A program made the position numbers and the translations under genes. Below are positions 1,755 through 16,000 of a stretch of DNA of 64,000 bases, in pieces. The DNA lies in NCBI GenBank assembly GCA_944390745.1, contig CALXQK010000010.1:104144-168143 (forward strand). The letters are read 5' to 3'. The stretch comes from an uncultured Duodenibacillus sp. (lineage in GTDB: Bacteria > Pseudomonadota > Gammaproteobacteria > Burkholderiales > Burkholderiaceae_F). Each line of letters begins with the position of its first letter. Positions within the stretch are counted from its first letter, which is position 1. The notes under the pieces are model-generated. The model searched no databases and was not told where the DNA came from. It worked only from the letters and a program-made list of their open reading frames with translations.

Positions 1755-3257
1755 ATGTCTATCAATGACCCCCAGTGGGGCCGCAATGCCGGAGGCGGCA
1801 AGTCCGGCGACGCGGGAGACGATGATCCTCGCGGCAAGCCCGAGCGCCCCGACAACGAGGAGCAGTCCCCGCGCAACGACCGCGCCGACGAGGCTCGCGA
1901 CGAGCGTCGTCCGGATCCGCCGCAGCGCGGCCGCGGCGAACCCACCAGCGACCTTGACCAGCTCTGGGATGACTTCAACCGCATGCTGGGCTCGATCATG
2001 GGCGGAGGCGGCAAAAACCGCAGGCCCGGCAATGCGGGCTGGCAGCAGGATCGCGATGACGACTCGCGCAGCTGGAATTCCGATGCGCGCGAAGACGCCT
2101 CCGAGGACAGGCAGCCGCAGACGCGCCGCTCCACGAGCGGCTTCGGCGGCTTCGGCGGCCGGGGCGGCAGGCGCGGCAATGCGGGCGGCCGCGGCTTCTC
2201 GGCGCGCGGACTGGTGCTTCTGGCGGGCGTGGCCGTCATCGGCTGGGCCGCAAGCGGCATCTACATCGTTCCCGAGGGCCAGGTGGGCGTGGTGACCACG
2301 TTCGGGCGCTATACGAGCGACAGTGCGGCCGGCATCAACTGGCGCGCGCCCTGGCCCATCCAGGAGGTCGAGATCGTGGACGTCTCGAGCGTGCGCAAGG
2401 CCGAGATCGGCATCAAGGGCACCTCAAGCCGCCTGCGCGAGGCCCTGATGCTCACCGACGACGAGAACATCGTCGACGTGCAGTTCAACGTGCAGTACCG
2501 CATCCGTCTGCACCAGGCCAAGGACTACCTCTTCCGCAGCCGTGATCCCGACCAGGCGGTGATCGGCGCCGCCGAAAGCGCGATGCGCGAGGTGGTGGGC
2601 CGCAAGACGATGGACTCGGTGCTCTTTGAGAGCAAGCAGGAGATCGCCTCCAACGTGCAGACGATCATGCAGCAGATGCTCGACCGCTATCAGACGGGCA
2701 TTGAGGTGATGAGCGTGGCCATTCAGAACGCGCAGCCGCCCCAGCCCGTGCAGGCCGCCTTCAACGACGCCGTCAAGGCCGGGCAGGACCGTGAGCGCCA
2801 GATCAACGAGGGCCAGGCCTATGCCAATGCGGTCGTGCCGGCCGCGCGCGGCACTGCATCGCGCCTGATTCAGGAGGCCGAGGGCTACAAGGCGCGCGTG
2901 GTGGAGACGGCCACCGGCGACGCCGAGCGCTTCTCGATGGTGCTCTCCCAGTACGAAAAGGCTCCGCAGGTCACGCGCGAGCGCATCTACATCGACGCCA
3001 TGCGGGACATCTACGCCTCGACGCAGAAGGTGCTCGTCGACACGCGCTCGGGAAGCAATCTGCTCTATCTGCCGCTTGACAAGCTCGTCGAGCGCAGCGC
3101 CCCGGGGGCGGCGGCCGCGCCCTCGACGCCTGCAGCCGCGGCTGCCTCCTCGCTTGCCGCGCCGCAGACCGGCGCCGCTCAGCAGCCGGCGGCTCCCGCG
3201 GCAAACGCCTCGCGCGACATTGATCCCCGCGCGGCCTTCCGCATGCGCGGTGAATGA
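1755..3257 (+). CDS. hflK: FtsH protease modulator HflK
   Basis: HflK is a membrane-anchored SPFH/prohibitin-family protein that forms the periplasmic HflKC cage around FtsH. The product is 500 residues. A Gly/Arg/Asp-rich, disordered cytoplasmic N-terminal stretch covers about residues 1-150, followed by one membrane segment (GLVLLAGVAVIGWAASGIYI, about 153-172) and the SPFH domain (VPEGQVGVVTTFGRY onward). A long Ala/Pro-rich tail ends the protein. The N-terminal extension is longer than in E. coli HflK (419 residues in total). The stop overlaps a possible upstream ATG of hflC, so translation of the pair is probably coupled. Confidence 0.96.
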   Translation: MSINDPQWGRNAGGGKSGDAGDDDPRGKPERPDNEEQSPRNDRADEARDERRPDPPQRGRGEPTSDLDQLWDDFNRMLGSIMGGGGKNRRPGNAGWQQDRDDDSRSWNSDAREDASEDRQPQTRRSTSGFGGFGGRGGRRGNAGGRGFSARGLVLLAGVAVIGWAASGIYIVPEGQVGVVTTFGRYTSDSAAGINWRAPWPIQEVEIVDVSSVRKAEIGIKGTSSRLREALMLTDDENIVDVQFNVQYRIRLHQAKDYLFRSRDPDQAVIGAAESAMREVVGRKTMDSVLFESKQEIASNVQTIMQQMLDRYQTGIEVMSVAIQNAQPPQPVQAAFNDAVKAGQDRERQINEGQAYANAVVPAARGTASRLIQEAEGYKARVVETATGDAERFSMVLSQYEKAPQVTRERIYIDAMRDIYASTQKVLVDTRSGSNLLYLPLDKLVERSAPGAAAAPSTPAAAAASSLAAPQTGAAQQPAAPAANASRDIDPRAAFRMRGE

Positions 3258-3274
3258 CCGGGGGAACACAGACA

Positions 3275-4162
3275 ATGAAGAAATTTACGACATTGGTGAT
3301 TGCGGCGATCATTGCCGTGGGTGCGGCGCGCCTTTGCCTGTATACGGTGGGCGAGCGCGAATACGCGCTGGTCTTTGCCCTGGGCGAGCTCGTTGAGGTC
3401 AAGAGCGAGCCGGGACTTTATGCAAAGCTCCCCGCACCGTTTCAAAACGTGGTCTATCTGGACCGGCGCATCCTCACCATGGACACGCCCCAGGCTGATC
3501 TCGTGCAGACCAGCGAAAAGAAGAATCTTCTGATCGACAGCTTCGTGAAGTGGCGCATTCATGACCCCCGCTCGTACTGGGTGTCGTTTCAGGGCAGCGA
3601 GCGTGCGGCTGAAGACCGCGTGGCGGCCCTGCTGCGCGACGCCCTGAACCAGACGGTGAACCGCCGCACGGTCAACCAGATCACCAGCCGCGAGCGCGAC
3701 CGCGCCATGAGCGAGATCAAGGCGGCGCTGCAGTCTCGGGTGAGCGACGTCGGCATCGAAATCGTCGACGTGCGCCTCAAGCGCGTGGACTTCACGCCTG
3801 AGATCTCCGAGTCGGTCTACCGCCGCATGGAGGCCGAGCGCAAGCGCGTGGCAAGCGAGGAGCGCAGCGAGGGCGCCGCGGCCGCCGAGAAGATTCGCGC
3901 CGAGGCCGACCGCCAGCGCGCGGTGATTCTTGCCGAGGCCTATCGCGATGCCCAGCGCATCAAGGGCGAGGGCGACTCCCGCGCCAATGCGATCTACGCC
4001 GAGGCATTCAGCAAGGATCCGGAGTTTGCGCGGTTTTACCGCAACATCGACGCCTACCGCATGAGCTTTGGAAAGCCCACCGACATGATGGTGCTCGACG
4101 GCTCGGGCGAGTTCTTTGAGATTTTCAAGGATCCCGAAGCCGGCGCCGCAAAGCAGCGCTGA
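3275..4162 (+). CDS. hflC: FtsH protease modulator HflC
   Basis: HflC is the partner of HflK in the FtsH-regulating complex. The 295-residue product has a single N-terminal membrane anchor (KKFTTLVIAAIIAVGAARL) followed by the SPFH domain (YTVGEREYALVFALGEL) and a charged coiled-coil region (EAERKRVASEERSEGAAAAE). An ATG at 3254 overlaps the hflK stop, but the ATG at 3275 has GGGGGA about ten bases upstream and begins directly with the expected MKKF membrane anchor, so I prefer 3275. Confidence 0.95.
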   Translation: MKKFTTLVIAAIIAVGAARLCLYTVGEREYALVFALGELVEVKSEPGLYAKLPAPFQNVVYLDRRILTMDTPQADLVQTSEKKNLLIDSFVKWRIHDPRSYWVSFQGSERAAEDRVAALLRDALNQTVNRRTVNQITSRERDRAMSEIKAALQSRVSDVGIEIVDVRLKRVDFTPEISESVYRRMEAERKRVASEERSEGAAAAEKIRAEADRQRAVILAEAYRDAQRIKGEGDSRANAIYAEAFSKDPEFARFYRNIDAYRMSFGKPTDMMVLDGSGEFFEIFKDPEAGAAKQR

Positions 4163-4194
4163 TGAGGGCGGTCTGATCCGCAGGGTGCAGAGGC

Positions 4195-4386
4195 ATGAAG
4201 GTCATTCTTCTTGCGCTGGGCTTCATGATCGTCTTTGAGGGAGTCTTTCCCTTGATCGCGCCCGGGCTCTGGCAGCAGTCGCTTGAAAAAATCTCGCGCA
4301 TCAATCCAGAGACCGTCCGCCGGGCGGCCATGGTGATGGTGATCGCGGGGCTGGGCTGGATCTGGGTTCTGACAGCGTTTGTCTGA
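4195..4386 (+). CDS. DUF2065 family small membrane protein
   Basis: This 63-residue protein consists almost entirely of two hydrophobic segments (VILLALGFMIVFEGVFPLIA and MVMVIAGLGWIWVLTAF) with a short loop between them. The size, the two segments and the position between hflC and hisZ match the DUF2065 (YjeT-like) family, which sits at this locus in many proteobacteria. Its function is unknown; linkage to hflKC suggests a membrane role in the same neighbourhood. It starts 32 bases after hflC. Confidence 0.85.
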   Translation: MKVILLALGFMIVFEGVFPLIAPGLWQQSLEKISRINPETVRRAAMVMVIAGLGWIWVLTAFV

Positions 4387-4464
4387 ACCCGGACCGGCGC
4401 CGGCGGTGAATCGGAGACATCGACAAAAGCAAGAACAGCAAGGATAGGGAGCGTTCGTTCACAC

Positions 4465-5628
4465 ATGCCCAACTGGCTCATTCCGGACAATTTTGCAGAC
4501 ATCCTGCCCCGGCAGGCGCGCACGCTTGAAAAGATGCGTCGCGATTGTCTTGACCTTTTTGCGGCGCACGGCTTTGAGCTCGTGCAGCCGCCCCTGGTCG
4601 AATTTGTTGACTCGCTGCTCACGGGCAGCGGCAGCGACCTTGACAACAACACCTTCAAGTTCATGGATCAGAAGGGCGGCAAGATGATCGGCCTGCGTGC
4701 GGACATGACGCCGCAGGCCGCGCGCATTGACGCGCACATCCTCAACCGTCCGGGCGTCTGCCGCCTGTGCTACGCGGGCAGCTGTCTGCATGCCCGTCCG
4801 ATGCATCCGCTGGCGAGTCGCGAGCCGGTCGTGGCCGGCGCCGAAATCTTCGGCGCCTCGGGGCTTGAGGCCGACGCGCAGGTGATGCGCCTTGCCGTCA
4901 AGAGTCTGCGCAGGCTCGGTCTGAAGACCGTGCATCTTGACATCGGCCACACGGGGGTGCTGCGCGCGCTTCTTGACGATCAGCCGCTTACCGACGAGCG
5001 GCTGCATGCGCTCGTGCGCGCGCTGCGCATGAAGGATCCGGTGGCGCTGCAGGCCGCGGCCTCGGACTTTGACGAGACCACCCGCGCCGGGCTGGTGGCG
5101 CTCGCGCGCTACTTCGGCGATGCGGACGTTCTCGACGTGCTCGAGCGCGAGCTGCCGCAAAAGCCCGCGATTCGCGAGGCCATTGAGGAGGTGCGCACGC
5201 TCGCCGGCCTGTGCGGCGCCGATGAGACGAGCTTTGACTTCTGCGACGTCCACGGCTACCAGTACCTCACGGGCATTACGTTTTCGGCCAACATACCGCA
5301 ATATGCTCAGGCGGTTTTGCGCGGCGGGCGGTATGATGGTGTGGGTCTTGCCTTCGGCCGTTCGCGGCCCGCCTGCGGATTCACGATTTATCTGCGGGAG
5401 CTTGCGGGGGTGCCCGAACTCGAGGAGCCGGCGCTGCCCGAGGCCGTGATCGCCGCCGGCCCCGTGGATCCCGAATTTGAAGCCTGCGTCGAGCGCCTGC
5501 GCGACGAGGGCCGTGTTGTCGTGCGCCTGCTTCCGGGGGAGAAGTCCGAGGAGACCGCGCGGCAGTTTTGCGTGACGCACGAACTTGTGCGCACGCCCGA
5601 AGGAATTGAGCTCGTTGCTCGCAACTAA
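4465..5628 (+). CDS. hisZ: ATP phosphoribosyltransferase regulatory subunit HisZ
   Basis: HisZ is a catalytically inactive paralogue of histidyl-tRNA synthetase that forms a hetero-octamer with short-form HisG for the first step of histidine synthesis. The 387-residue product has the class II synthetase-like core (LRADMTPQAARIDA, AGSCLHARP, YDGVGLAFGRSRPACGF) but no C-terminal anticodon-binding domain, which distinguishes it from HisS. It lies directly before purA, the standard Burkholderiales arrangement. hisG itself is not in this window. Confidence 0.95.
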   Translation: MPNWLIPDNFADILPRQARTLEKMRRDCLDLFAAHGFELVQPPLVEFVDSLLTGSGSDLDNNTFKFMDQKGGKMIGLRADMTPQAARIDAHILNRPGVCRLCYAGSCLHARPMHPLASREPVVAGAEIFGASGLEADAQVMRLAVKSLRRLGLKTVHLDIGHTGVLRALLDDQPLTDERLHALVRALRMKDPVALQAAASDFDETTRAGLVALARYFGDADVLDVLERELPQKPAIREAIEEVRTLAGLCGADETSFDFCDVHGYQYLTGITFSANIPQYAQAVLRGGRYDGVGLAFGRSRPACGFTIYLRELAGVPELEEPALPEAVIAAGPVDPEFEACVERLRDEGRVVVRLLPGEKSEETARQFCVTHELVRTPEGIELVARN

Positions 5629-7691: not shown

Positions 7692-9425
7692 CTAGGACTG
7701 CTGCAGACTGCGGCAGAAGCGCGTGCGGCCCAGAAGCTGCGCCATGGCGGTCTCAAGGTCGTCCGTACGGCGCACAAAGACCGTGTTGCGGACAATGTTT
7801 TCGTTGGGCGTGTCAATCGTCATCAGAGCGAGCTCAATGCCGCGCGCGTTCATCTCGTCCTCGGCCGTGCGCGCCAGTCCTGCGGGAAACCGCCCGTCGG
7901 TGATGACGATGAGAAGCCTGTCGCGGGCCGACGTCCGAAAGCTGTGCGCAGCCCATCGCAGCGCCTCGACAATGGGCGTGGATCCGTAGGCCGTCACCGG
8001 CGCGATGCGCTGCAGGCTTCGGCCGATCGGTTCGTCCGCGGCGGCAACGAGCGAAACCTTGTCGTCCTGCCCGGGGCCGGGGAAGATGGCCGCGCGAGCC
8101 GAGCAGCCGGAGACAGCGCGAAGCGCCGAGATGAGCGCAGCGACAATGCACTTGGCCCGGGTCATGGTGCCGATGCCCATGGAGCCTGAACGATCCAGAA
8201 GAATCGTGACGTCGGCCGAGACGTTTCGCTCGGCAGAGGGCGCGGCAAAAAGCCGCGGATCGCGCGCGGCCATCGCATTGAGCCAGTCGGGGGCAAGCTC
8301 AACGCCCTCGCAGCCGCGGCGCTCAAACCCATCATCCTCGGTCTTGAGAACCTCGGAAAACAGCCTCGCAAGCCTTGCGGTGTGCTCGAGCGCCTTTTCA
8401 AACTCCTCGCGGTACTCGTCTGCGCCGCTCATGACGGCGGCGTCAGACGGCCCGTCGGACCAGAACTTCGTCTCGGGGACATCCCTGTCCAAGCTTGCTG
8501 CTGCAAGTTCGGCATCCCGGTCCGGGGAGGGCGTCTCCCAAAACTGCTCCTGCTCCAGCACGCCGGAAATCGCCCGGTCAACCCTCCGGTCAAAGAGCAC
8601 TTCGCGCAGAAACGTCAATGTACGCTTGCTGCGGCGCGGGCGCCCGGTGTTCTTGTAGCGCGGGATGCGGTCCGGGGACCTCCCGGCCGTGCCTTCCTGA
8701 TGGTCGGGAACCGCCGCATTCCCGGCGGCGGCGCCGGCTTTTGAAGTCGCTTCAAGAGCAGGCTCGCGTCCGTGCGTGACCTGCGAGCAGATGGCCGAGA
8801 TGCTCCGGGCCAGGGCAAGCGCCTCGGCCGAGGAGGCAAGGCTGCGGGCCTTGAGCACCTCCGCGTGAAAGCGCTCCATGAGGTCATCGGGGAGATTGGC
8901 GCGCATGCGCTTCTCAAGCCCGGGCAGGCATTGCTGCGCCCAGGAGTACCCATGGTCGGAGAACAGGGTGAAAAGCGTCCAGAGAACGAATGCGCTGCCA
9001 GCCGAGATCGTCTCCGGGGCGGCCGCGCTGATTTGATTCTTTTCCAGAAGCACGCGCCCGAGCTCCTCGCGCCAGAGCCTGTAGCCCGCAAAGCGCTCGG
9101 CCCCCGCCTTGTCGATGCGCAGATCCTCAAAGCTGTTGAAGAGGGCAAAAACAAGGCCTGACTCGCGCGAGGCCTCGCGCACCACCTGCACGTCGGTGTC
9201 GGTCACATGCATCATCTCGTGAATGCCGTGGCCGAGTGCGAGAACTTCAAAATGCTCGTCTGCAGGATCAAGGCTGCCGAGCCAGACCGTCCTGCCGTTT
9301 GTTGAGGGCGACCCGTCAAAGACAAAGGACACCCCCGTGCGCTCGGAGATGGTTTGAAGAAAGGTTTCGACGCCTTTTCTGCGCTCGGCGGCGGAAATTG
9401 TCGGGTCGCGATAAAAAAGAGTCAT
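7692..9425 (-). CDS. CobT-like protein: HExxH region plus C-terminal VWA domain
   Basis: The 577-residue protein resembles the cobaltochelatase CobT/VWA superfamily. The N-terminal part carries HEMMH (residues 69-73) and, about 25 residues later, NSFEDLRID, the spacing seen in CobT-like zinc-peptidase-type regions. The middle is charged and variable. The C-terminal VWA domain has a complete metal-ion-dependent adhesion site: DRSGS (about residue 410), GSTP and TDG. No cobS-like MoxR ATPase or cobalamin gene is nearby, so a cobalt-chelation role is not supported; related VWA proteins usually work with an AAA+ partner. There is no signal peptide, so it is cytoplasmic. Substrate and partner are unknown. 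Confidence 0.8.
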   Translation of the reverse strand: MTLFYRDPTISAAERRKGVETFLQTISERTGVSFVFDGSPSTNGRTVWLGSLDPADEHFEVLALGHGIHEMMHVTDTDVQVVREASRESGLVFALFNSFEDLRIDKAGAERFAGYRLWREELGRVLLEKNQISAAAPETISAGSAFVLWTLFTLFSDHGYSWAQQCLPGLEKRMRANLPDDLMERFHAEVLKARSLASSAEALALARSISAICSQVTHGREPALEATSKAGAAAGNAAVPDHQEGTAGRSPDRIPRYKNTGRPRRSKRTLTFLREVLFDRRVDRAISGVLEQEQFWETPSPDRDAELAAASLDRDVPETKFWSDGPSDAAVMSGADEYREEFEKALEHTARLARLFSEVLKTEDDGFERRGCEGVELAPDWLNAMAARDPRLFAAPSAERNVSADVTILLDRSGSMGIGTMTRAKCIVAALISALRAVSGCSARAAIFPGPGQDDKVSLVAAADEPIGRSLQRIAPVTAYGSTPIVEALRWAAHSFRTSARDRLLIVITDGRFPAGLARTAEDEMNARGIELALMTIDTPNENIVRNTVFVRRTDDLETAMAQLLGRTRFCRSLQQS

Positions 9426-9761
9426 GTGCCGGTCCCTGGTGGTGCTGCTCTGGCGGCAAAAGCCGGCATTTTACGGGAATTTGTCCGCGTGCTGACACGC
9501 TGCGGCAGTTGCCAGGGTCCGCGCAGGGCCGGCCGTCGGGGCGTCATTAAAGGGCGGCGCCCTCAAAGGAGGGGGCGGCAGGGTGGGCCGCGATCGGAAA
9601 ATACAATCGAAAAGCCCCTCCGAACGCATATTTTCAGACCTGTTCAATCAATATGGCGTTCGGAAAATTTTATTGATGGATTTCTTTTCCTTGTTTTATT
9701 CGGCAAGTAAATCAAGGGAAGGAAAACAAAGAAATCCGATTCGCGAATAAAGGAGAAAATA
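9426..9761. other. Divergent intergenic region with inverted repeats
   Basis: This 336-base gap separates the VWA gene and the autotransporter, which diverge. It becomes AT-rich after about 9600. It holds a hairpin-forming inverted repeat (arms 9620-9634 and 9649-9663, CCGAACGC...GCGTTCGG with one bulge) and a second 9-base repeat pair (9678-9686 and 9729-9737, GGATTTCTT/AAGAAATCC). AGGAG at 9751-9755 is the ribosome binding site of the autotransporter. No gene is visible. Confidence 0.55.
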
Positions 9762-12700
9762 ATGAGAACTGATTTGCTGGGGGGGGGCGCAAGCTGCACC
9801 GAGCGTAATTCATCCCGCACCCATTTCAAGAAAACCCCCGCAGCTTCAGCGCTTTTAGCGGCGCTTCTCTCCTTTTCAGCAGCCTGCAGCGCTGCAGAAC
9901 CCGCTCTGCCCACGCTTCCCGATGCGTCCACCTGGGACGTTGAATGTTCGGGCGACACCTGCCAGGAAGTCACGACAAGCTCCACCCTTGAAAGCGCCTA
10001 TCGACTCGATGGTCAGTCGCAAACACAGCTGAACAACTCAATTGTTGGAAAGCAGCTTCAGGCGACGTCGGTCAGCGATCAAACCGTCATTGTCCGAGGA
10101 ATTCCGGCGAGTGCGCAGACCGTCAATCTGATTTTTGCGTCCTCGACGAGTTATTCGCAGCATGACGGCAACACCGGCACGCATGACGACAACACGCTGC
10201 TCATTGAGCTTGGAAACGATGCTGCCAGCCCGCTTCGTCTGGCGGGCATCTCAAGCTCCGCGGAGCCGACCATTGCCGCATCGGCGCACATGGGAGGCGT
10301 GGCCAGCAGCAATTCGCTGCTGATCCGAAACTCCGCGCTGCAGCATGCCGACAGCGCCACAAACAGCCTCGTAACAGCCGCCTACGTCTACAACCTCTAC
10401 GACCCGTCGGGCGGAACAGCAGCGTATAACGACAACCTCCTTGTCATTGAAAATTCGTCGATGCGCAGCGCCGGGAACTCCATTTCCCACAACATCAACC
10501 TTGCTGCGGCCTACCTCGTTGGATGGTATCCGCCTGGCACAAGATCGCCGTATGAGGCCAGTCGAAACAAGCTCTATGTCATTGGAAGCGAGCTTGACGT
10601 CAAATCCATGTGGACGGTATACAACTACGGCTCAAACACGCAGGCGTCCGAAGCCAATGACAACTGGATGTCGATTACGGACTCAAACATCAACCTCAAC
10701 TTTGTCAGTTCCTACGACAACGTCACCGGCAGAATCGGCATCAGCAATTCCTCAATGGTGGTCGTCCGGGCGTTTGACAAGTCTTCGAACAACGTCCTTT
10801 ATGTCGCCCGCTCAACCATCGACATTGATCAGCTGAAAATGCCCGCGGCGGCCGTGACCGATGGCTTTGGGCAGATCACCATTTCTGCCGCTCAGGCCGG
10901 GGATGTTGCACAGAACAATCTCACGCAGCTTGAGGACGTTGACTTCACGCTGACGGATTTTTCGGACGCGACCATCACGATCGCTCCGGACATCACGATC
11001 GGCTCGGCGGGGGCCGTTGTTTACAACAATTACCACCAGGACAAGATTGCGCGAGACAACACGACCCGCATTGTCTCGACGACCGGCCCCCGGGACTGGA
11101 CGCTCAACGGCGGCAAGCGGCGCTTTGTGATTTTCGGCGGACGCTCCATCCTGACTCCGCAGGCAATGAACTCAAGCCAGGGGGTTGAGAAGGCGCTGGC
11201 CGAATCCAACCACGCGGTTGTCGAAAACATTCGCTTCAACGAGGCGGCCATCTACGGCGGATGGGTTCAGCACGTTCATGACGTTGACGAAGCCTTCCCC
11301 GAGGTTTTGACCGGGACTCCCCAGGCTGTCACCAACACGGTTGACCTTACCAACGTGTCGGTTGAGGGAACCGCCCAGATTGCCGGCGGTCTTTCTGTGC
11401 AGGGGGAGGCCAGCGGCAACAAGGTGACGGTGACCGGCGGGCAGTATGTGAAGACCACGTTTGCGGGCGGCTATGTTGAGCGCACGGGCTCCGCTGCAGG
11501 CAACGAGGTGACGGTTTCAAACACCACGCTGACGGGAAGCGAGATTTACGGCGGCCGAATTGACGGCACGGTCGACGCCGCCTCGCAGGCCACCGACAAC
11601 GTGGTTGTCATTGGAGACAACGTTGTCGGAGCCGACGGAGGCGCTGCGCAGCTTGAACGGCTCTACGGCGGCTACCTTGCGGCTGGAAATGACGTGCAAA
11701 AGACGTTTGCCGGAAATGAGCTTCATATCTCGAGCCTCGTGACGACCGCAGAACTTGGCGGCTTTCAGCACTACAGCTTTTTCATCAACAATGAAAGCGC
11801 CCGGTCCGGGGCCTTCATCACCGTGACGGGCGCGCAGCCCGTGGTCCTGCAGCCTGACGGCGCGCAGGCCTCCACGGTGGCCGTCGGCGGCACCGGCCTG
11901 TACCTGACGCAGGGAAGCTCGTACACCCTTATTGACAGCGCGGCCGGCTTCACAAGCCTCGACGGTGCGGCGGTTGCCGCGGGAACGGATCTGTCTGCGC
12001 TCAAGCAGGATGTGGTCATGCAGGACGTCCCCTCGGTCATCCGGGTGGACACGACGACGATCAGCAAAGACGACTATGAGCTTGCTATCGTGGACGAGGC
12101 CGCGGGCGCGCAGTCGCTGCAGATGCAGGTCACTGGAGGCGCAGCGCAGTCAAGCTCGGTCAACAGCCAGACCGACACGCTCGTTGAATCGTCGCTCTCG
12201 GCGCTTGCCACGGTCTTTGCCGCGGACGATCTCTTTGTCGACACGGTGCTTCGCTCCCGCACCGGCAAGCGCGAAGGGCTTTTTGCCGCCGCGAGGGCCG
12301 GCAGGTACAGCTACGACACGAATACGCGGCTTGAGACCAACATCGTCAGCGGTCTTGTGGGCTTCTCCGCGGCCGTCGGCAGCTCCAACGTCGGCGCGTT
12401 CCTTGAGATGGGGCACGCATCCTACGACTCGCGCCTGAATTCAGCCCTGGGGGCCGTCCGCGGCGAGGGAACGCAGAACTATGCCGGCGTCGGCGTCTTT
12501 GTCGACTACGGGCTTCCGGTCGAGGGATGGCGTCTGACGGGCTACATCAAGGGCGGCTCGCTTGCCAACGACTTCAACGCGGTGATCGCGGGGCTTGATG
12601 CCGGCTACGACAAGTCAAGCGCCTACTGGGGCGCGCACCTCGGCACGCACTACGACATCGACATGCCTGGGCTCACCACGCGCGTCTTCTTCTCGTACCT

Positions 12701-13082
12701 CTACGACGGACGGGAGTCGGAGAGCTATGACATCGGCGGCACGGCCGAGATCGAGGGCGCGCACGTTGAATACGATGCCCTGAACGCGCATCGCGTCCAG
12801 GCGGGCGGCATCTTCGAGTTCAAGATGAGCGAGCGGCTGCGCCCGTATCTGGGTTTGACATTTGAGCAGATTCTCTCGGCAAAGGCCGAGGGTACGGCAA
12901 CCGACTCGGCAGGCACGCTTGCGCTCAAGTCCAGCGACCTTGAGGGCAGCACCGGCATTCTGTCGGCAGGGTGGACCTATATGAACGAGACGGGAAGCTT
13001 CTCCTGCGAGTTCGGGCTCAACGGCTACGCCGGCACCCGCAATGGCGTGAGCGGCCAGATCCAGGGCTTCTGGAGGTTCTAG
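9762..13082 (+). CDS. Autotransporter adhesin-like protein (type Va), probably phase-variable
   Basis: The 1106-residue protein has an N-terminal signal peptide (hydrophobic ASALLAALLSFSAACSAA, about residues 26-44), a long beta-helix-type passenger rich in Asn/Ser/Thr with recurring GNxVTVTGG and IYGG units (about 45-800), and a C-terminal autotransporter beta-barrel (about 820-1106) ending in the aromatic FWRF expected for BAM-dependent outer-membrane insertion. It is therefore surface-exposed or released; the ligand is unknown. AGGAG lies six bases before the ATG. Codons 6-9 (CTG GGG GGG GGC) form a run of nine G (9779-9787): loss or gain of one G would shift the frame before the signal peptide and abolish the protein. 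In this assembly the frame is open. Confidence 0.92.
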   Translation: MRTDLLGGGASCTERNSSRTHFKKTPAASALLAALLSFSAACSAAEPALPTLPDASTWDVECSGDTCQEVTTSSTLESAYRLDGQSQTQLNNSIVGKQLQATSVSDQTVIVRGIPASAQTVNLIFASSTSYSQHDGNTGTHDDNTLLIELGNDAASPLRLAGISSSAEPTIAASAHMGGVASSNSLLIRNSALQHADSATNSLVTAAYVYNLYDPSGGTAAYNDNLLVIENSSMRSAGNSISHNINLAAAYLVGWYPPGTRSPYEASRNKLYVIGSELDVKSMWTVYNYGSNTQASEANDNWMSITDSNINLNFVSSYDNVTGRIGISNSSMVVVRAFDKSSNNVLYVARSTIDIDQLKMPAAAVTDGFGQITISAAQAGDVAQNNLTQLEDVDFTLTDFSDATITIAPDITIGSAGAVVYNNYHQDKIARDNTTRIVSTTGPRDWTLNGGKRRFVIFGGRSILTPQAMNSSQGVEKALAESNHAVVENIRFNEAAIYGGWVQHVHDVDEAFPEVLTGTPQAVTNTVDLTNVSVEGTAQIAGGLSVQGEASGNKVTVTGGQYVKTTFAGGYVERTGSAAGNEVTVSNTTLTGSEIYGGRIDGTVDAASQATDNVVVIGDNVVGADGGAAQLERLYGGYLAAGNDVQKTFAGNELHISSLVTTAELGGFQHYSFFINNESARSGAFITVTGAQPVVLQPDGAQASTVAVGGTGLYLTQGSSYTLIDSAAGFTSLDGAAVAAGTDLSALKQDVVMQDVPSVIRVDTTTISKDDYELAIVDEAAGAQSLQMQVTGGAAQSSSVNSQTDTLVESSLSALATVFAADDLFVDTVLRSRTGKREGLFAAARAGRYSYDTNTRLETNIVSGLVGFSAAVGSSNVGAFLEMGHASYDSRLNSALGAVRGEGTQNYAGVGVFVDYGLPVEGWRLTGYIKGGSLANDFNAVIAGLDAGYDKSSAYWGAHLGTHYDIDMPGLTTRVFFSYLYDGRESESYDIGGTAEIEGAHVEYDALNAHRVQAGGIFEFKMSERLRPYLGLTFEQILSAKAEGTATDSAGTLALKSSDLEGSTGILSAGWTYMNETGSFSCEFGLNGYAGTRNGVSGQIQGFWRF
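9779..9787 (+). repeat. Homopolymeric G9 tract inside the autotransporter start region
   Basis: Nine consecutive G lie 17 bases after the A of the start codon. Tracts of this kind at the 5' end of surface-protein genes are classic slipped-strand phase-variation switches. The ON frame is the one present here. Confidence 0.9.
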
Positions 13083-13590: not shown

Positions 13591-13663
13591 TAAACTTCCG
13601 AGACGCGTATTATTCATCACTCCTTTTTGATTGTCAACCCCTTGTCAAAATAAATTTCGAGAC

Positions 13664-16000
13664 ATGGCCAAAAAGAAGAAGATTGCCCCAAGAGAATCAA
13701 GACAATCCAGGCTTGAAGACTTCCTGGGCTCTCAGCCCTGCAGACTGGGCGTTGCTGCGCTTGTCCGGATCGGCCCGAGCTTTTCTCGCAGCCGCGCTGC
13801 GCAGACGCTTGTCGGCGAGGGCGCAGTCTCCGGTCCCAGGGAGGCGGCCGACTGTCTCAAGCGTCTTGAACAGGCGGGACTGCTGCAGGCCCGCGGCAGC
13901 CAGCTTGCGCTGACCGCCCAGGTGTTCAGCGAAAGGAAAAAGGGCGTCATCAACTTTTCCCGAAACTCTCTCGGCTACTTTTATCCAGAGGACGGCTCCG
14001 AGCGCCTTGCCCTTTGCGAAGAGACGGGGGAGGCGCTTCCCGGAGACGTTGTCTGGGCGCGCATCGAGTGGGACCGTGCCGTGGCCGAGGCGCTGCTCAA
14101 GCGCCGCCGCACCTGGGTGTGCCGCTACAGGCGCACGCGCTCAGGAGGGTATTGCGAGCCTTTTGACAACTACGGCGCTTCAATCCTGGTCGCGGGGGCA
14201 GAGGCTCCAAAGGGCCGCAATGGACGCAATGGCGCCGCGAAGGCTTCCAAATGCCCGTATGAGGATGGAGACGTCGTTGAGGTTGAGCTTACTGACGCAA
14301 GCTGTCGACTTGACGCCATGGACCGCGTGCCCGAGGGCGTCATCAGGCGGCTGATCGCGCGCAGGGACGATGCGCGGGCCGAGGTTCTTGCCACGGCGGA
14401 GCGCCTCGGCATTCCCCGGGAGTTTTCCCGGCAGGCCCTTGAAGAGGCCGGTGCGCTGCCCGATGCAGTCGATAGCGACCTTGAGCTTGCCTCACGGGTG
14501 GATCTGCGCGACATCGGCTTTGTGACGATTGACGGCGAGGATGCGCGGGACTTCGATGATGCGGTCTGGTGCGAGCGCTTCGGCGAGGACTCCTGGCGCC
14601 TTCTTGTGGCCATTGCCGACGTCAGCCGCTACGTGACGCCTGAAAGCCCGCTTGATGTCGACGCGCAGAAGCGCGCCACGAGCGTGTACTTTCCGCAGTT
14701 CGTCATTCCGATGCTGCCCGAAAAGCTCAGCAACGGGCTCTGCTCGCTCAACCCCGGGGTGGACCGCTGCACCATGGTCTGCGACATGGTGGTGGGAGCC
14801 GACGGCAGGGTCCGGGCCTATCAGTTTTATCCCGCGCTCATTCACTCAAAGGCGAGACTCACCTATACCTGCGTGCAGGAGGCGCTCAACGGCAATGCCG
14901 CGGAGCTGCTCGAGCGCGGCGGCAGCCTTGAGGACATTTTCTGCCTTCATGCGCTTTACAAGGCATTTGCGGCGGCGCGCCGCGAGCGCGGCGCCATCAG
15001 CTTCTCCTCCACGGAGACAAGGATTGTTCTCTCCCCCGACGCAAGGAAGGTCGAGAAGATCGTTCCAGCCGAGCACACCGATGCGCACCGCCTCATTGAG
15101 GAGTGCATGCTTGCCGCAAACACCTGTGCGGCCGACTTTCTTCTGCGTCACAAGGCGACGTGCCTGATGCGCGTTCACGACAAGCCCTCGCCCGACAAGC
15201 TTGCCGGCGTCAGAAGAACGCTGAGCGCCTACGGACTCAAGCTTTCCGGCGGGGACAGTCCGACGGCGAAGGACTACGACGCGGTGCTTGAGGCGGTCGC
15301 GGGCAAGCCCTGGGCCGGAGCGATTCAGCTCGCGCTGCTGTGCAGCATGCAGCAGGCGCAGTACAGCCCGGACAACATCGGACACTACGGTCTTCACTAC
15401 GAGGCCTACACGCACTTCACCTCGCCCATTCGCCGTTATCCGGACCTGCTGGTGCACCGCGCCATCCGCGCCATTTTGCTCAGGCACAGGTATCTGCCGC
15501 GGATTCTCGTCGATGAGACCGAGGCACGGGAGTCGCGCACGGGCATGAGAATGATTGAGGCGCAGCGCGAGCACGATGCCGCCGCCTCGGTCAATGCCCC
15601 GCGCAAGGGTTCGGCGCTCGACCGATGGCGGCGTCTCGGCGTTCTTTGTTCGGCTGCCGAACGGCGCGCCGAGCAGGCCTCGCGCGACATTGAGGCCTGG
15701 TACAAGGCGTGCTTCATGACCCGTTTCGTTGGAGAAAGCTTCACGGGCGTGATTACCGCCGTGATGCCCGCGGGGCTCATCGTGAGCCTGCCGGAGCTTT
15801 TCGTTGAGGGGTTTGTGCACATCAGCGAAATTGCCGGCGAGTACATCCAGTATGACGAGGCGAGAAACACCCTGGTGGGCAGAGTCAGCGGCAGGCGCTA
15901 TCGCATTGGTGACTCCCTGAAGGTGCGCGTCCTCGAAGCCCAGCCCGAGACCCGTTCGATCACCTTTGCCGCCGTGAACGGCCGCAGTTCGCGCAGATGA
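13664..16000 (+). CDS. rnr: Ribonuclease R
   Basis: RNase R is a processive 3'-5' exoribonuclease that degrades structured RNA and takes part in rRNA and tmRNA quality control. The 778-residue product has an N-terminal winged-helix and cold-shock region, a central RNB nuclease domain with the metal-binding acidic cluster DGEDARDFDDAVW and the TSPIRRYPDLLVHRAI motif, and a C-terminal S1 domain (FTGVITAVMPAGLIVSLPE). A TTG 33 bases upstream is in frame, but the ATG at 13664 starts the expected Lys-rich N-terminus. rlmB follows on the same strand, a common pairing. Confidence 0.96.
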   Translation: MAKKKKIAPRESRQSRLEDFLGSQPCRLGVAALVRIGPSFSRSRAAQTLVGEGAVSGPREAADCLKRLEQAGLLQARGSQLALTAQVFSERKKGVINFSRNSLGYFYPEDGSERLALCEETGEALPGDVVWARIEWDRAVAEALLKRRRTWVCRYRRTRSGGYCEPFDNYGASILVAGAEAPKGRNGRNGAAKASKCPYEDGDVVEVELTDASCRLDAMDRVPEGVIRRLIARRDDARAEVLATAERLGIPREFSRQALEEAGALPDAVDSDLELASRVDLRDIGFVTIDGEDARDFDDAVWCERFGEDSWRLLVAIADVSRYVTPESPLDVDAQKRATSVYFPQFVIPMLPEKLSNGLCSLNPGVDRCTMVCDMVVGADGRVRAYQFYPALIHSKARLTYTCVQEALNGNAAELLERGGSLEDIFCLHALYKAFAAARRERGAISFSSTETRIVLSPDARKVEKIVPAEHTDAHRLIEECMLAANTCAADFLLRHKATCLMRVHDKPSPDKLAGVRRTLSAYGLKLSGGDSPTAKDYDAVLEAVAGKPWAGAIQLALLCSMQQAQYSPDNIGHYGLHYEAYTHFTSPIRRYPDLLVHRAIRAILLRHRYLPRILVDETEARESRTGMRMIEAQREHDAAASVNAPRKGSALDRWRRLGVLCSAAERRAEQASRDIEAWYKACFMTRFVGESFTGVITAVMPAGLIVSLPELFVEGFVHISEIAGEYIQYDEARNTLVGRVSGRRYRIGDSLKVRVLEAQPETRSITFAAVNGRSSRR

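Follow-up and report, generated by a model that had tools for sequence, protein, structure and literature searches.

What is a run of nine guanines doing in the first codons of a gene for a large surface protein? The question is raised by a stretch of 64,000 nucleotides (hereafter the window; G000:C10:104144-168143) from the draft genome of an uncultured Duodenibacillus sp. (G000; 2,224,686 bases, 20 contigs, 99.83% complete), for which the original prediction had proposed a phase-variation switch. The tract was found where it had been placed: it begins 17 bases past the A of the ATG, at the third position of codon 6, and ends at the second position of codon 9, ahead of a signal-peptide-like stretch (Table 1). 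Its length is that of the assembly consensus. A true start downstream of the tract would have argued against a switch, but before codon 177 the only in-frame starts are codon 1 (ATG) and codon 5 (TTG), both 5' of the tract. Since there is none between codons 5 and 177, a start ahead of the signal peptide must read through the tract. In the two alternative frames stops occur 14 and 31 codons past the start, so that the gain or loss of one G is predicted to turn the gene off, as had been proposed. One detail did not hold up: the sequence between the tract and the signal peptide had been described as low-complexity, but residues 10-21 (ASCTERNSSRTH) form a short stretch that is not really of that kind.

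Table 1. Features of the tract-bearing gene and its neighbours (positions are those of the window)
Feature	Position	Strand	Remarks
Shine-Dalgarno-like AAGGAG	9750-9755	+	6 bases before ATG; from the sequence, scored again
Start codon ATG	9762-9764	+	Next in-frame starts: codon 5, then codon 177
G9 tract, codons 6-9, proposed slippage switch	9779-9787	+	In frame in the assembly (ON)
Signal-peptide-like stretch, residues 22-45, FKKTPAASALLAALLSFSAACSAA	9825-9896	+	By eye from the translation
Passenger-like region, residues 46-797	9897-12152	+	No Pfam match
C-terminal translocator-like region, residues 798-1106, ends WRF	12153-13079	+	Homology to barrels recognised by PF03797
Autotransporter-like ORF, 1106 codons	9762-13082	+	ORF and translation
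Divergent neighbour, VWA-domain protein	7692-9425	-	Context
Downstream neighbour, RNB/S1 exoribonuclease (RNase R type)	13631-16000	+	Start may be 13922; context

Is the protein an autotransporter? The ORF has the 1106 codons first reported, and by eye the translation opens with a signal-like stretch, continues in a long passenger-like region and ends in WRF. A probable class assignment can be made by an indirect route. Searches of Pfam (E <= 0.001 and E <= 10) and NCBIfam gave nothing usable for the protein, and PF03797 did not match its C-terminus directly even at E <= 10. The C-terminal region does, however, align with two barrels that PF03797 recognises, G004:C17:24018-24974 (27% identity, E 2.4e-19) and G031:C2:76192-76992 (25% identity, E 4.9e-17). 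A profile-profile comparison with the PF03797 barrels of the host genome was uninformative (probability 14%, E 0.0004), and a structure prediction from the single sequence, without an alignment, had a pLDDT of 30, too low for use. By transitive homology, then, the protein looks like an autotransporter, apparently of the classical type (type Va).

The gene has a paralogue on contig C13 of the host genome, with 51-57% identity in the C-terminal region and no tract. A full-length orthologue was not found among the 60 relatives searched, a search of the protein against genome contigs returned 23 pattern matches and 0 relatives, and a DNA search of a plasmid collection gave no match. Two other contigs open inside near-identical barrels (G000:C8:6-311, L128; G000:C20:6-311, L127) with 65-68% identity to the window protein, and further paralogues may therefore hide in assembly breaks. 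Among the best 80 of at least 592 loci, the top named match of the RNase R neighbour was 'uncultured Sutterella sp.', at 53% identity.

A G9 tract is not in itself remarkable. At least one occurred in 49 of 100 dinucleotide-preserving shuffles of the window, which means that its presence is not improbable by composition and that rarity within the window is no argument. The improbability lies in how tract lengths are distributed across the genome and in where tracts sit, next to autotransporter genes. Counted on both strands, the host genome has 213 runs of exactly G6, six of G7 and one of G8, followed by 27 of nine or more (11 of G9, 12 of G10, one each of G11 and G12, and two of G13). Extrapolating the decay from G7 to G8 gives about 0.2 expected runs of nine or more. 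Counts that are low at G7-G8 and then rise to a peak at G9-G10 are to be expected if long tracts form a class of their own, slipping or maintained. Such tracts are common in the family, with at least one in 51 of the 61 genomes searched. Missing mismatch repair was considered as their cause and found no support, a MutS domain being present in 10/10 genus genomes.

These counts can also be read in another way: runs of nine or more G may be broadly tolerated, mostly in intergenic DNA, and the tract in the window may be in frame in a surface gene by chance, with length changes that are rare or harmful and no switching system. The shuffles and the presence of MutS in all ten genus genomes fit such neutrality, as does the fact that 20 of the 27 tracts in the host genome have other predicted genes beside them and no recognised autotransporter. 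Not every tract need therefore be a switch, and long tracts also arise elsewhere. The near absence of G7 and G8 runs speaks against neutrality, as does the position of the tracts relative to autotransporter genes.

To score position, a tract was counted at a 5' end if it lay between 450 bases before and 300 bases after the point where the open frame begins. The host genome has nine PF03797 matches at E <= 0.01; this fixed rule finds a tract in 5 of the 8 genes at E <= 0.001. A sixth gene (C4:34979), with C9 and C8 before a signal-like stretch, was recognised by inspection; the rule missed it because the open frame extends further upstream. The seventh autotransporter-like gene with a tract is that of the window, unrecognised by PF03797. 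If 54 of 1900 genes are assumed to lie near a tract, 7 of 11 autotransporters (the nine PF03797 matches, the window gene and the C13 paralogue) gives a hypergeometric probability of 3e-9.

The association extends to relatives. In eight genomes of the genus, the host included, a tract lies at the 5' edge in 27 of 66 PF03797 rows and at the 3' end in 0, and twelve shifted controls, in which the counting interval was moved by 1.5 to 20 kb, gave 0-2 each. Sixty-three of these rows have at least 500 codons and include all 27 positives; the other three are shorter (309, 356 and 463 codons). Without a size cut the count is 27/84, distributed as 5/8 in the host, 8/17 in G006, 5/12 in G009, 4/14 in G008, 3/13 in G004, 2/10 in G002, and 0/5 in both G001 and G003; G005 and G007, with 22 of the 106 PF03797 rows, were left out of the genus count. 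Four other genera, counted over the 53 of 64 rows with at least 500 codons, gave 23/53 at the 5' end and one at the 3' end, with 0-1 in shifted controls (8/13 in G085, 7/15 in both G031 and G034, 1/10 in G064). The association is thus family-wide, yet uneven: G001 and G003 show none and G064 nearly none. Genome G012 has 16 tracts and 0 PF03797 matches. Indifferent tolerance of long tracts does not lead one to expect such a contrast between 5' and 3' ends, in the genus or outside it.

If these tracts do switch genes, both states should be met among intact loci. A classifier assigned the 54 tract rows at autotransporter 5' ends to upstream positions (34), first codons (12), unclear (7) or both (1). 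The first-codon class comprises tracts that follow an ATG supported by a Shine-Dalgarno sequence. Tracts were excluded when no 300-codon open frame started nearby, as for L263. Nine of the twelve are poly-C and three poly-G, and one is merely C8. If a fixed tract were needed, all these genes would be in frame, and a random phase would put about one third in frame. Five of the 12 keep the start in frame with the long open frame that follows (the window gene, L244, L257, L258 and L271) and seven put it out of frame (L120, L125, L253, L264, L268, L274 and L280); in these seven the frames that follow span 704-1778 codons. In L268 and L274 the tract separates the passenger frame from a stretch that by eye is hydrophobic and signal-like. 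ON and OFF states are therefore both present among intact genes, across loci and species and not as alleles of the window gene.

The first-codon rule is not strict. Against 13 rows called on the real sequence, shuffling the upstream sequence still gave a mean of 3.0 calls in the 54 rows, and at most 9 in any of 200 shuffles. Other tracts satisfied the rule in 11 of 124 orientations. Chance may thus account for about three of the twelve calls. Requiring a Shine-Dalgarno match of five or six letters leaves four loci against 0.9 expected, with the window gene and L258 in frame and L125 and L253 out of frame. The mixture of states thus survives the stricter rule, in small numbers. Even allowing for about three chance calls, tracts that put long open frames out of phase are hard to square with neutrality, which we regard as an unlikely explanation of the window tract. 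The G>=9 excess, the enrichment at autotransporter 5' ends and the out-of-phase loci in relatives all support the phase-variation reading originally put forward.

Tracts of the upstream class suggest a second design. In the genus, 9 of 18 G-sense upstream tracts fall in the spacer of a sigma70-like promoter (at least 9/12 hexamer matches) against 3.5% with shuffled flanks, by a rule that was set after seeing examples and that yields 3/18 with a narrower scan range. By the same rule the figures were 1/61 for tracts not beside autotransporters and 0/11 for C-sense tracts, again in the genus set, and in an enlarged set 10 of 34 G-sense tracts lie in a promoter spacer against 1.4 expected. In the host itself, L123 reads TTGACA, 18 bases that include a G9, then CATAAT. 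The 1/61 exception, L012:2482-2490, is a G9 that occupies the spacer of a promoter-like site with TTGACA; the gene downstream encodes a protein that, by its N-terminal sequence, may resemble UDP-galactopyranose mutase, and it is a candidate phase-variable glycan gene.

Another group of upstream tracts follows the box TTGAT-N4-ATCAA, which we take to be a site for an anaerobic regulator of the FNR/ANR type. At 9/10 positions or better, 6-12 bases before the tract, it occurs at 5 of 34 G-sense autotransporter tracts against 0.03 in shuffles, though box and distance range were chosen after seeing examples and three of the five cases come from one genome, G031. The cases include L122 of the host and L242, an exact match. 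A wider test (at least 8/10 within 45 bases) gave 9/53 against 1.6 expected and, for 61 other tracts, three in the G orientation and one in the C orientation. Tract lengths differ between similar promoters: the near-identical promoters of four paralogues in G008 carry C9, C9, C10 and C9, and the similar promoters L245 (G006) and L246 (G004) have G9 and G11. These differences point indirectly to change in tract length.

Could the true gene simply have another number of Gs? Homopolymer length is a common sequencing error, as is generally known, and the genome is a 20-contig draft. But the recorded length yields an intact frame of 1106 codons, comparable positions are occupied by long tracts in 10 genomes from five genera, and an error of one or two bases would leave the tract itself in being; an artefact of assembly or sequencing is accordingly very improbable. 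We can give hardly any credence to the idea that the tract acts as mRNA or codon sequence, through slow or structured initiation and not through slippage, for although its codons are among the first ten, a region in which mRNA structure is generally known to affect initiation, the use of poly-C (nine) as well as poly-G (three) in first codons and the tracts in promoter spacers, where no codon is read, fit a change in length better.

We therefore return to slippage. Because such tracts front about four in ten of the recognised autotransporter genes examined in the host and its relatives, the G9 of the window is very probably an on/off switch worked by slipped-strand mispairing, that is, a simple-sequence contingency locus, and one of a family-wide set. 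Nine Gs are long enough to slip in other bacteria. Mispairing during replication would add or remove one G; any change other than a multiple of three would stop translation no more than about 31 codons past the start, ahead of the signal peptide or within it, and so no autotransporter would reach the surface, until later slippage restored the frame. The assembly would have captured the ON phase. The slippage rate, its reversibility in this organism, surface display and the biological role are points that we infer. Several autotransporters of this bacterium and of its Sutterella-like relatives would be governed by tracts of two designs: those in first codons as translational switches, and those upstream, often in a promoter spacer, as devices for transcriptional tuning. 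With several genes switching independently, a clonal population would come to display differing combinations of surface proteins.

A bolder proposal, to which we give somewhat less than even weight, is that Sutterella-like gut bacteria have a two-layer, family-wide autotransporter 'phasome'. Its first layer would be on/off switching by poly-G or poly-C in first codons. Its second would be poly-G between an FNR/ANR-type box and a -10-like element, such that oxygen and slippage act on the same promoter.

The type of switch is already known from Campylobacter, Moraxella, Bordetella and Neisseria. Campylobacter is another phylum-level lineage, and Bordetella belongs to the same bacterial order as the host. 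Campylobacter autotransporters have poly-G either upstream in a putative promoter (capC) or in the coding sequence (capD), the commonest capC tract in C. jejuni being G9, and capC tract length did not account for whether the gene was intact or inactive (PMC7168839). The same pair of designs, upstream and coding, is seen here; the family differs in having several tract-bearing autotransporter genes per genome and in using sense-strand poly-C too. Moraxella catarrhalis likewise has poly-G at adhesin genes: uspA1 mRNA is low at G8-G10 and high at G11-G12, and mid/hag goes from on to off with the length of its poly-G tract (PMC7302503). Its Hag protein is an autotransporter of the Oca type (PMC1931440), whereas the window protein looks classical.

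In Bordetella pertussis a genome screen found long tracts in coding regions and promoters (the fim C-stretch), and tcfA, bapC and BP3651 were polymorphic from strain to strain and also within cultures (PMC1891110). Length polymorphism was measured there, whereas the present case concerns another family and is built on placement, excess and reading frames in sequence. The Neisseria meningitidis autotransporters NalP and MspA are switched by homopolymeric tracts within the coding sequence (PMC3723659); they differ from the present case in genus, in number (two genes) and in that expression state was scored in isolates. Judged by titles and abstract openings, a search of the open-licence literature found no paper on phase-variable or tract-bearing autotransporter genes in Sutterella, nor one on phase variation in Parasutterella, and a term search of the phase-variation review PMC11868660 did not find the word Sutterella. 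The switch is of a known type, and within that scope we found no report of its scale in this family.

Why would it matter? Bacteria of the Sutterella type are common gut commensals, and little is known of the ways in which they meet the mucosa. If their surface proteins do switch independently, each population would be a mixture, with possible effects on adhesion, immune recognition and sensitivity to phages, and finding a gene in a metagenome would not tell whether it is expressed. Existing read sets allow tract lengths to be counted, which makes the switch testable at once.

Several other tract sites are of note. About 90 bases upstream of an autotransporter start, a C9 (L121:361-369) lies between the arms of an inverted repeat (AGGGTTTGTAC ... 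GTACAAACCCCT). Genome G085 has very long tracts upstream of autotransporter genes, a G27 in L261 (G085:C28) and a G11 beside a C24 in L275 (G085:C20:50600-53300), which could be real expansions or assembly errors. Tracts are also found in prophage-like surroundings. L283 (G064:C135:41000-48500) has six tracts of nine or more G or C within 2.3 kb (2431-4781) of a tail gene array. It includes two tandem genes of about 160 amino acids with PHROG tail-protein matches, in which a tract encodes the FGGG of an HPVGS...NP (or similar)...FGGG motif; these look like phase-variable phage tail proteins. A further tract there (3799-3807) lies in no listed ORF. L285 (G034:C11:125500-131000) and L115 (G009:C46:39000-46000) each have three tracts that lie within tandem short ORFs or next to them, in surroundings that look phage-like by eye; three ORFs from there had no PHROG match. 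Finally, a sense-strand C9, exactly nine in four species (L031:383-391, L068, L088 and L096), stands before a TTGACT- or TTGATT-like element, and the gene downstream is one that we take to be porin-like (MKKT[LV]AAVAVLGAFAGSA...).
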